Positions 15,679 through 63,063 of a stretch of 64,000 nt of DNA are shown in pieces. A program made the translations under genes and the position numbers. The notes beneath the pieces are model-generated. The model did no database searches. It saw only the letters and a list, made by a program, of their open reading frames with translations, and had not been told where the DNA came from. Position 1 is the stretch's first letter. Every line of letters begins with the position of its first letter. Source of the stretch: Candidatus Methanomethylicia archaeon (GTDB taxonomy: Archaea; Thermoproteota; Methanomethylicia; Culexarchaeales; Culexarchaeaceae); the NCBI GenBank assembly GCA_025058215.1, contig JANXEO010000001.1, positions 186,001 through 250,000 of the forward strand, in the 5' to 3' direction.

Positions 15679-16404
15679 TTAAACTACTTTTATACTACTA
15701 ATTAATAAAGCTATCTCATTTCTTGATAGTTTTCTGAATAAACCATCTTTTATTGATACAATACCTATTTCTAGCTTATCAGGTTCTAAAGGAGCCTCTA
15801 TTATCGGTTTTAATGCGGAGATAGCCAATTTCATAGCTTCATCTAATGATATTTCAAATTTATAGTGTTTTTCAAGAAATTCGGTAACTTGTTGACTTCC
15901 AGATCCAATAACTCTAGCAAAGTAAGATGCATATGATCCACTAGGTTCTGTCATTAGCAATCTTGGACCATTATAATCAACTCCAGCTATCAGAAAAGCA
16001 ACACCAAAAGGTCTTACCCCACCACGTTGAGTGAAAATTTGCATGACATCACTTATACGTTTTGTTAAAACTTCAATATCAATAGGTTCATCATAAATAA
16101 TTCTATTTATTTGAGCTTCTTGACGTGCATAATCTATTAGAATTCTAGCATCAAATGGAAATCCAGCGTAAGTTATACCAATATGTTCATCGATCTTAAA
16201 TATTTTCTCTAGAGATGTGTAATCTATTAGAGGGATTATTTTCCTTCTTTCAGCAACTAAAATAACGCCTTCAGCACATCTTATTCCTAAAGCAGTAAAA
16301 CCACGTTTAACAGCTTCCATCGCATATTCAACTTGAAATAATCTTCCATCAGGAGAAAATACTGTAATTGTTCTATCATAACCCATACCTGGCGGTGTAA
16401 ACAA
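15679..16404 (-). CDS. psmA: Proteasome alpha subunit
   Basis: Outer-ring subunit of the 20S proteasome, gating entry to the chamber. The N-terminal gate motif YDRTITVFSPDGRLFQVEYAM (about 9-28) is diagnostic. The remainder matches the alpha fold (VILVAERRK; GVRPFGVAFLIAGVD; GSGSQQVTEFLEKHY). 241 aa. TTG start at 16404 with GGGTGA eight bases upstream; an ATG at 16386 would begin inside the conserved gate and is less likely. Its ATPase partner PAN is at 52.8 kb and a beta subunit at 60.2 kb. Confidence 0.97.
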   Translation of the reverse strand: MFTPPGMGYDRTITVFSPDGRLFQVEYAMEAVKRGFTALGIRCAEGVILVAERRKIIPLIDYTSLEKIFKIDEHIGITYAGFPFDARILIDYARQEAQINRIIYDEPIDIEVLTKRISDVMQIFTQRGGVRPFGVAFLIAGVDYNGPRLLMTEPSGSYASYFARVIGSGSQQVTEFLEKHYKFEISLDEAMKLAISALKPIIEAPLEPDKLEIGIVSIKDGLFRKLSRNEIALLISSIKVV

Positions 16405-16470: not shown

Positions 16471-16534
16471 TGGGTCTGTTCGTCGCGAGAACGTCATCTT
16501 TACATCAGCAACTGGGACGGCTTCTTCATTCCCA
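16471..16534 (-). ncRNA. Probable C/D box small guide RNA (2'-O-methylation of 23S rRNA)
   Basis: Read leftward, the segment has a four-base terminal stem TGGG/CCCA, box C as ATGAAGA (16523-16529), box D' CTGA (16505-16508), box C' ATGACGT-like (about 16491-16498), and box D as CAGA (16475-16478). Guide spacings are 14 and 12-13 nt. Against remembered E. coli 23S rRNA, the D' guide (GCCGUCCCAGU) pairs over 11 nt with the P-loop (around U2249) and the D guide (UCUCGCGACG) over 10 nt with helix 93 (around U2593), each with one or two G-U pairs. Box D deviates from CUGA and box C from RUGAUGA, but the GA pairs for the kink-turn are kept. The UGA of box C is the stop codon of pop5. Confidence 0.72.
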
Positions 16535-16885
16535 TAATTTAGTAGTAGAAGAACTATTAATTATTTTCTCAGCCTTTCTAAGAGTACCTGTGACTTTAGC
16601 TATACTTAATATTACATTGTAACCATTTATATTATTAATAAAAACTAGTGCAGCTCTGGCTTTAGTTACATTTAAATGATCACAACGTAATATTCCAATC
16701 TTTTTCTCGGGATAATATCTCATTAAACTAATATACATCTTACTTGATCCAGCAATACCAAATAATGTAAGAATAGAATTTAAAATCGAATTTAAAATAT
16801 CTTTAAAGGTAATATTAGGATTATCTTCTTTACAGATAACTCTAAAAATCAAATATCTATTCTTTCTTAATTTCATGTTTATCAT
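16526..16885 (-). CDS. rnp2: RNase P protein subunit Pop5 (Rnp2)
   Basis: Protein cofactor of RNase P, which pairs with Rpp30 to activate the catalytic RNA. The ferredoxin-like fold shows in RYLIFRVIC, the ILTLFGIAGSS stretch, and the strands IGILRCDHLNVTKARAALVFI and GYNVILSIAKVTGTLRKAEKII, the latter the usual Pop5 ending. The frame is open from 16930, but that lies well inside rpp30; GGAGGG in the rpp30 tail is followed by in-frame ATGs at 16885 and 16876. I chose 16885, giving about 119 aa, with a 29-base overlap with rpp30. The stop codon is part of a probable C/D sRNA. Confidence 0.9.
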   Translation of the reverse strand: MINMKLRKNRYLIFRVICKEDNPNITFKDILNSILNSILTLFGIAGSSKMYISLMRYYPEKKIGILRCDHLNVTKARAALVFINNINGYNVILSIAKVTGTLRKAEKIINSSSTTKLWE

Positions 16886-17615
16886 TAACCCTCCCAAGGA
16901 ATTTAACACCAGGGTAAATATATTTTCCACTTAATTTCTCTCTATTTTCCATGATTAGCTTAAATGGTATATCGGAAACAAAACGTAGAGCATCAAACTC
17001 AGAAGCACCAAGAAGAGTTGCTACTGAAGCTAAAGCTCTTGGTTCTCTCATTTCAAATATATTCATTGCACCAGAAGAGAATATTACTGGTAAATTGTAT
17101 TTTAAAGCTAATTTAACATTTTCCGACATTATTTTTAACATTTTTATTCTTTCACCAACAGTAGAGCACCTTAATAATTCAGCTACGTTAATTTCCAATG
17201 CGGCATTATTTTCTAAAGCTAATTTAGCTTCAGAAACATCAAAAAAGTTCTTCTTCCAATCATAAAATGAAAAATTAAGGATGTCAACACGTCTATCTCT
17301 AGCAGCAAATCTAGCTACTTGCAAATTTTCACAAAAAACAGCTATAATTTCTACTTTTCCTCTAAAATATCTTAAATCTCTTTTTAAATGTTCGATGTCG
17401 GTGTGATGCAAATCAACTCTGCTAACCATATCTAATCCATTTTCTTCAAATAGTTTTCTAATATCTTTGATAATATCAATATTGTTTCTATTGAAATCTG
17501 CAATACCAATAGCATAAAAACCGAGCACAGAAGCTATTTTAATTATTTCTGAAATTGAGGAAGTACCGTGAGAAAGATTTGAAAATACATGTAAATCGAT
17601 GAATCTCCTACCCAT
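16857..17615 (-). CDS. rnp3: RNase P protein subunit Rpp30 (Rnp3)
   Basis: PHP-barrel protein subunit of RNase P, partner of Pop5. It starts RRFIDLHVFSNLSHG, the PHP-like opening, and keeps GFYAIGIADF, VSRVDLHH, and the family region AALEINVAELL and PVIFSSGAMNIFEMREPRALA. Metal-binding residues of true PHP phosphatases are only partly kept, as usual for Rpp30. 252 aa is at the long end. It sits between the COG1325 gene (two-base gap) and pop5 (overlap) in the exosome/RNase P super-operon. Confidence 0.94.
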   Translation of the reverse strand: MGRRFIDLHVFSNLSHGTSSISEIIKIASVLGFYAIGIADFNRNNIDIIKDIRKLFEENGLDMVSRVDLHHTDIEHLKRDLRYFRGKVEIIAVFCENLQVARFAARDRRVDILNFSFYDWKKNFFDVSEAKLALENNAALEINVAELLRCSTVGERIKMLKIMSENVKLALKYNLPVIFSSGAMNIFEMREPRALASVATLLGASEFDALRFVSDIPFKLIMENREKLSGKYIYPGVKFLGRVNDKHEIKKE

Positions 17616-55692: not shown

Positions 55693-55786
55693 CGGGCCCG
55701 GCGGGATTTGAACCCGCGACCCCCGACTTAGAAGGCCGGCTCGAGCCTCCATAGAGGTTGCTCTGTCCTAGCTGAGCTACGGGCCC
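55693..55786 (-). tRNA. tRNA-Arg (TCT) with a ~19-nt intron at a non-canonical site
   Basis: Acceptor GGGCCCG/CGGGCCC, D arm GCTC/GAGC, anticodon stem CCGGC/GTCGG with loop CTTCTAA (anticodon TCT), T arm GCGGG-TTCAAAT-CCCGC. Between the D arm and anticodon stem lie 20 nt rather than one, so about 19 nt (55740-55758) form an intron at position 26/27. A small hairpin CCTC-TATG-GAGG and the pairing of GAG with CTC give a relaxed bulge-helix-bulge at the junctions. Exact splice sites could shift by a base or two. 75 nt mature. Confidence 0.93.
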
Positions 55787-62804: not shown

Positions 62805-62935
62805 CCCGCCGTAGCTCAGTGGTAGAGCATCCGGCTGTAGCGTTTGCATACACACGATACAGATGTAAAATCGTGGATGAGTGTGTATCAGCCGTAGAAA
62901 CCGGAGGGGCGCCGGTTCAAATCCGGCCGGCGGGA
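62805..62935 (+). tRNA. tRNA-Tyr (GTA) with a 59-nt intron
   Basis: Acceptor CCCGCCG/CGGCGGG with C1-G72, the archaeal Tyr identity pair; D arm GCTC/GAGC; anticodon stem TCCGG/CCGGA, loop CTGTA-G-[intron]-A; T arm GCCGG-TTCAAAT-CCGGC. Intron 62841-62899 lies at the canonical 37/38 site. A bulge-helix-bulge fits: helix CTGT with GTAG, and bulges A-G/C and A-A/A at the two junctions. The intron itself holds an ATACACAC/GTGTGTAT stem. Mature length 72 nt. TATA-like TTTATAATA at 62781-62789. Confidence 0.95.
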
Positions 62936-62949
62936 TCACAAAAATATAT

Positions 62950-63063
62950 GCGGGGGTAGCCAAGCTAGGACAAAGGCGCGGGACTTAAGACCGTACTAAT
63001 AAAAGGGCTGGATAAGAAATCCCGTCCCGAAGGGGTTCGTGGGTTCAAATCCCACCCCCCGCA
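62950..63063 (+). tRNA. tRNA-Leu (TAA) with a 29-nt intron
   Basis: Type II tRNA with a long variable arm: acceptor GCGGGGG/CCCCCGC, D stem GCC/GGC, anticodon stem CGGGA/TCCCG, loop CTTAAG-[intron]-A (anticodon TAA), variable arm TCCCGAAGGGGTTC, T arm GTGGG-TTCAAAT-CCCAC. Intron 62990-63018 is at the canonical 37/38 position; the four-base helix CTTA/TAAG and AG/A and AA/A bulges give a clean bulge-helix-bulge. Starts 15 bases after tRNA-Tyr, probably co-transcribed. Mature length 85 nt. Confidence 0.95.

Follow-up and report, generated by a model that had tools for sequence, protein, structure and literature searches.

The 64-nt segment at positions 16471-16534 of the window (the whole 64,000-nucleotide stretch of archaeal DNA that was analysed) is confirmed, so far as sequence can tell, as an archaeal C/D box sRNA of ordinary type encoded on the minus strand. 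With a probability of roughly 0.9, it is a dual-guide RNA that would direct 2'-O-methylation at U2593 and at a site in the P-loop of 23S rRNA (E. coli numbering). Its parts and its neighbours are listed in Table 1.

Table 1. Features of the sRNA gene and of its immediate surroundings; positions are those of the window.
Feature	Position	Strand	Basis or remark
C/D box sRNA gene, 64 nt	16471..16534	-	boxes read directly; model match of 70.7 bits; orthologs conserved
Terminal stem, 5' arm TGGG	16531..16534	-	partner at 16471-16474; two-sided changes at 5/5 family stem pairs
3-nt bulge AAU ahead of box C		-	requirement of the C/D kink-turn
Box C, AUGAAGA	16523..16529	-	kink-turn GA and G6 kept; A at position 5 in place of U
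D' guide, AGCCGTCCCAGTTG, 14 nt	16509..16522	-	13/14 nt pair with the P-loop region of the organism's own 23S rRNA
D'+5 nucleotide, A	16513	-	faces U2249
Box D', CUGA	16505..16508	-	read directly; family-conserved
Box C', AUGACGU	16491..16497	-	read directly; family-conserved
D guide, TCTCGCGACGAA, 12 nt	16479..16490	-	positions 3-12 pair 10/10 with C2591-A2600 of the organism's own 23S rRNA
D+5 nucleotide, A	16483	-	faces U2593
Box D, CAGA	16475..16478	-	non-consensus at position 2; orthologs have CTGA, CGGA, CCGA or CAGA
Terminal stem, 3' arm CCCA	16471..16474	-	pairs with 5' arm TGGG
pop5 (RNase P protein), upstream gene, probable transcript source	16526..16930	-	PF01900, E=1.6e-22
pop5 stop codon TGA, inside box C	16526..16528	-	ORF 16526-16930; same in 5/5 same-family genomes
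psmA (proteasome alpha), downstream neighbour, outside the element	15679..16404	-	PF00227, E=1.1e-54
Family guide sequences for recognising orthologs: GCCGTCCCAG or GCCGCTCCAG, together with CTCGCGACG			

Read directly on the minus strand from 16534 to 16471, the element runs TGGG A AUGAAGA AGCCGUCCCAGUUG CUGA UGUAAAG AUGACGU UCUCGCGACGAA CAGA CCCA. The stem, the four boxes and the guide spacings of 14 and 12 nt that an earlier note on this DNA had described are thus all present, and the element was the sole match in the window, on either strand, of a permissive script that required boxes C, D', C' and D and a stem of at least 3 pairs. The kink-turn bases are kept as that note had claimed, with box C and box D each departing once from the consensus RUGAUGA/CUGA; orthologs include AUGAUGA and CUGA. 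In the window, A occupies both position 5 of box C and position 2 of box D, so that the standard U.U pair is weakened to A.A; relatives have A-U, A.G or A.C. A kink-turn filter requiring at least one U at this site, a rule given in PMC7994747, would reject the window's copy. In same-family relatives the stem is one pair longer, with an extra G and an extra C, one per side, and since both sides gain a base the 3-nt bulge beside box C is preserved.

Of the proteins for such an RNA, fibrillarin (PF01269, E=1.7e-100) and Nop5 (PF01798, E=1.8e-74) are encoded in the genome by adjacent genes, as they are in relatives; the completeness of the source assembly is 45.6%. By its proteasome matches (86% identity) the window belongs close to Candidatus Culexarchaeum, Methanomethylicota. 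Thermodynamic folding of the naked RNA missed the C/D fold; this is usual for such RNAs and lends no support. Rfam scans of the window and 16 relatives gave no C/D family above the gathering threshold, and the window gave no match at all; on a few relatives there were generic C/D matches below the gathering score to snoPyro_CD (RF00095), sR5 (RF01304) and sR23 (RF01138), all of which carry other guides. A search of the intergenic DNA for promoters and terminators of bacterial type gave no hit beyond the chance level, this promoter type not being the right one for the host.

Alignment to the organism's own 23S rRNA, which had been proposed as a check, gave pairing for both guides. The D guide forms 10 bp, one of them G-U, with C2591-A2600 through exactly guide positions 3-12, and its +5 nucleotide faces U2593, both as first claimed. 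The E. coli numbering was confirmed with rrlB, in which CUGGGGCGG begins at C2248 and CGUCGUGAGA at C2591. In 61 of 76 sequences the D guide core, ending in ...GACG, is 2 nt from box D, making U2593 the shared target prediction, and as a prediction common to the phylum U2593 is firm. Both target sequences are identical in all relatives in which these regions of 23S rRNA are readable.

The earlier note had also held that two such pairings were improbable by chance, a claim that proved too strong: pairing alone is only moderately significant, shuffled guides pairing equally well in 9.4% of cases for D' and 2.5% for D, and 0.8% of shuffled D' guides reach a 13-bp pairing. Given how modest this is under the null model, we take the pairing as supportive and not decisive, and do not rest the case on it.

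For the D' guide the note had proposed 11 nt of pairing with A2247-U2257 and U2249 as the target. The pairing extends to 13 nt (10 Watson-Crick, 3 G-U) with the equivalents of E. coli 2245-2257, because the organism's own rRNA reads CGGCUGGGGCGGC, and at the spacing found in this genome the +5 nucleotide does face U2249; most relatives outside the class, however, point to G2251. The D' core lies 1 nt from box D' in most sequences outside the class, 3 nt in the window and 4-6 nt in most of the class (CUCCAG-type cores, left out by the spacing script, were read by eye and are mostly at 1 nt). The 1-nt spacing gives G2251 in most families outside the class, and as the spacing varies among relatives the D' target nucleotide is uncertain. 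Methylation of G2251, in the P-loop, occurs in bacteria, in halophilic archaea and in eukaryotes (PMC11542601), and guides for it are predicted in three archaea (PMC4644070). Probably, then, the D' guide was ancestrally aimed at G2251 and box D' slid in Methanomethylicota.

It is possible, though we think it unlikely, that in the class the D' guide merely anchors or chaperones and has ceased to guide methylation, leaving U2593 as the sole modified site. In favour of this, box D' of the class now stands 3-6 nt away from the pairing core, where most other families have a distance of 1 nt, and the +5 position is thereby shifted or lost. However, the extra nucleotides in the window pair too (U.G, U.G, G-C), and positions 3-12 are fully paired around U2249.

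What outweighs chance pairing is that within the family the element is more conserved than its flanks. Identity to same-family orthologs reaches 82-84% in the element but falls to 60-63% in the intergenic DNA on its psmA side and to 65-67% in the 150 bases of pop5 that lead up to the element. Conservation in close relatives had been named at the outset as a test that could refute the RNA, and in those relatives all boxes and both guides are kept while the flanks diverge; in one same-family genome the copy in the same place reads TGGGGTATGAAGAAGCCGTCCCAGACGTCTGACTTAATGGATGACGTTCTCGCGACGAACTGACCCCA. The terminal stem likewise shows two-sided changes at 5/5 pairs among 18 class orthologs, with 92.7% of cells pairing, a level reached by 0/500 shuffles. 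Over the whole range (61 sequences, in a model-fitted alignment), the stem has a covariation score of 0.579, versus 0.170 when shuffled and at most 0.246 when slid.

A model built from four orthologs (R1) found the RNA across the class. A second model (R2), built from 15 class orthologs and used at a cut-off of E<=1e-3, gave a match in 260 of the 398 genomes sampled from the phylum, in almost every case a single one per genome; its E-values are rough, as calibration was shortened. Beyond the phylum set, Asgard and euryarchaeal coverage consists of 12 more genomes, accessed by way of named loci. Among them, R2 was strong in three Asgard genomes (two Baldrarchaeota, 1.2e-9 and 1.7e-11, and Borrarchaeum, 6e-7), weak in Helarchaeota (0.004), and without a match in Methanomicrobiales, Methanomicrobium, Methanobrevibacter, Hydrothermarchaeum and Vulcanisaeta. 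Judged by this range, which takes in TACK and several Asgard genomes, the dual-guide RNA is of unusual age and breadth.

The RNA varies within one family, f6. In part of it (L102, L112, L114, L115, L116) the D' guide GCCGTCCCAG is kept but the D guide has given way to a sequence unrelated to it, which reads as guide swapping inside one RNA family. Three genera of f6 (L104-L111, L113, L115, L116) carry two GC hairpins between box D and the CCCA arm, GGGC-loop-GCCC and CGCAGGG-loop-CCCTGCG, about 65-100 bases into the element, with invariant stems and varying loops. The insert had no match in Rfam, and this form resembles a C/D RNA that has been lengthened by a module of two hairpins.

The overlap with pop5 was also described correctly: the stop codon lies within box C, and the ORF is that of Pop5 by its PF01900 match. 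According to PMC7994747, one in four archaeal C/D sRNAs runs over a gene's 3' end and contains its stop codon, which falls in box C in about half of these cases, and transcription plus the internal boxes suffice for maturation. As such stops are common among archaeal sRNAs, the overlap is ordinary. The linkage reaches well beyond the family. In the class, a Pop5 ORF is upstream in 30/30 loci, most of which touch or overlap the element, the exceptions having pop5 tens of bases off, or about 220 in L100. The downstream gene varies in the class, where psmA is replaced by others, and other genes take its position in related families; the neighbourhood also carries Rpp30, L15e and SBDS. Of 40 loci picked from families outside the class, 12 have Pop5 as the gene immediately upstream in the same orientation, an adjacency expected by chance at a rate of roughly one over the gene count of a genome. 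The pop5 stop falls within one Bathyarchaeota copy of the RNA, at +35, and 131 nt separate pop5 from a Baldrarchaeota copy that follows it. These loci are most simply explained by an ancient linkage that was lost several times, though it may instead have been gained more than once.

Two further observations concern gene surroundings. On a Baldrarchaeum contig (L206 with L030), the Asgard copy lies a few hundred bases upstream of psmA on the opposite strand, with pop5 not adjacent, and this proximity to psmA echoes the neighbourhood in the window. Elsewhere in the window, three tRNA matches of 94-131 bases, at 62805-62935 (+), 62950-63063 (+) and 55693-55786 (-), are longer than usual, which suggests that these tRNA genes contain introns or have long variable arms.

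With the element behind or overlapping the Pop5 ORF in the 30 class loci and the 12 of 40 from other families, its kink-turn might instead be a cis-regulatory L7Ae site at the stop of the pop5 mRNA and not part of a trans-acting guide. L7Ae is a subunit of archaeal RNase P, and in Sulfolobus it controls its own synthesis by way of a kink-turn in its mRNA (PMC5539422). Even so, we regard this as very improbable, for most families outside the class carry the RNA away from pop5, and both guides and the distance from D guide to box are conserved, neither of which a bare kink-turn would need.

The reading frames separate RNA from protein. While the pop5 ORF of the window's family ends with TGA in box C, that of families f2 and f3 continues as GDEEAVPV and ends in box D', that of f9 continues in another frame as GMKKPSQATE, and in parts of f6 it ends before the element. 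The same nucleotides being read in different pop5 frames or left untranslated, it is the RNA and not a peptide that is conserved. Accordingly, a Pop5 C-terminal peptide as the conserved unit, to which the ORFs running into the element in f2, f3, f9 and part of f6 might have pointed, is ruled out by the frame changes between families and deserves practically no credence, as orthologs far from pop5 keep the sequence and the terminal stem covaries.

For the dual-guide sRNA, we propose that the RNA would be cut out of the 3'-terminal part of the pop5 transcript and that its C/D and C'/D' motifs would then be bound by L7Ae, Nop5 and fibrillarin, as the motifs and the genes for Nop5 and fibrillarin suggest. 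The D guide would then direct 2'-O-methylation of U2593 in helix 93, and the D' guide methylation in the P-loop, helix 80, which by the N+5 rule would fall on U2249 in this organism, with G2251 as the probable ancestral site. U2249 and U2593 are about 340 nt apart in sequence, and both are at the peptidyl-transferase centre. As the targets are distant in sequence and yet both at the catalytic centre, the RNA may bring them together and may so help to join them in 23S folding. A wider scenario, which we hold to be doubtful, is that this was an sRNA of the TACK/Asgard ancestor with its gene already tied to pop5. Where the pop5 stop is inside the RNA, excision of the sRNA destroys the stop, so that a transcript would yield either Pop5 or the guide, and the supply of Pop5 might in this way be coupled to assembly of the L7Ae-containing C/D particle.

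The archaeal C/D box sRNAs described by Dennis et al. 2015 (PMC4644070) and reviewed in PMC7994747 have the same box order, stem, two guides and size, and share the peptidyl-transferase-centre targets and the overlap of ORF 3' ends with the stop in box C. Those RNAs are fast-evolving with varied guide pairs (rapid turnover of guides, and no position methylated in all species studied, according to PMC7994747), whereas the window's RNA keeps one pair across TACK and several Asgard genomes. The G2251 guides predicted in three archaea (PMC4644070) are alike in their P-loop target, and most families outside the class would give exactly G2251, but the spacing in the window differs and gives U2249. 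The Arabidopsis C/D snoRNAs for 25S Gm2620 (equivalent to E. coli Gm2251; PMC11542601) act on the same widely methylated P-loop site by a C/D guide. The sections of PMC4644070 on 23S sites name no sRNA joining G2251 with U2593, and the pair is absent from its table of sRNAs bridging distant sites. The main texts on Sulfolobus and Pyrobaculum, in the parts consulted, do not name the orthologs, which their supplementary catalogues may already list. The breadth of the dual-guide RNA and its recurrent place behind pop5 are, apparently, undescribed points.

If the reading as a dual-guide sRNA is true, a guide pair for the P-loop and helix 93 that is kept as a unit over most sampled families of Thermoproteota and in several Asgard genomes would place this RNA among the most conserved archaeal C/D RNAs. 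It would also be a candidate for the ancestral set of RNAs inherited near the origin of eukaryotes, and would offer a test case for dual guides as folding chaperones of the catalytic centre.
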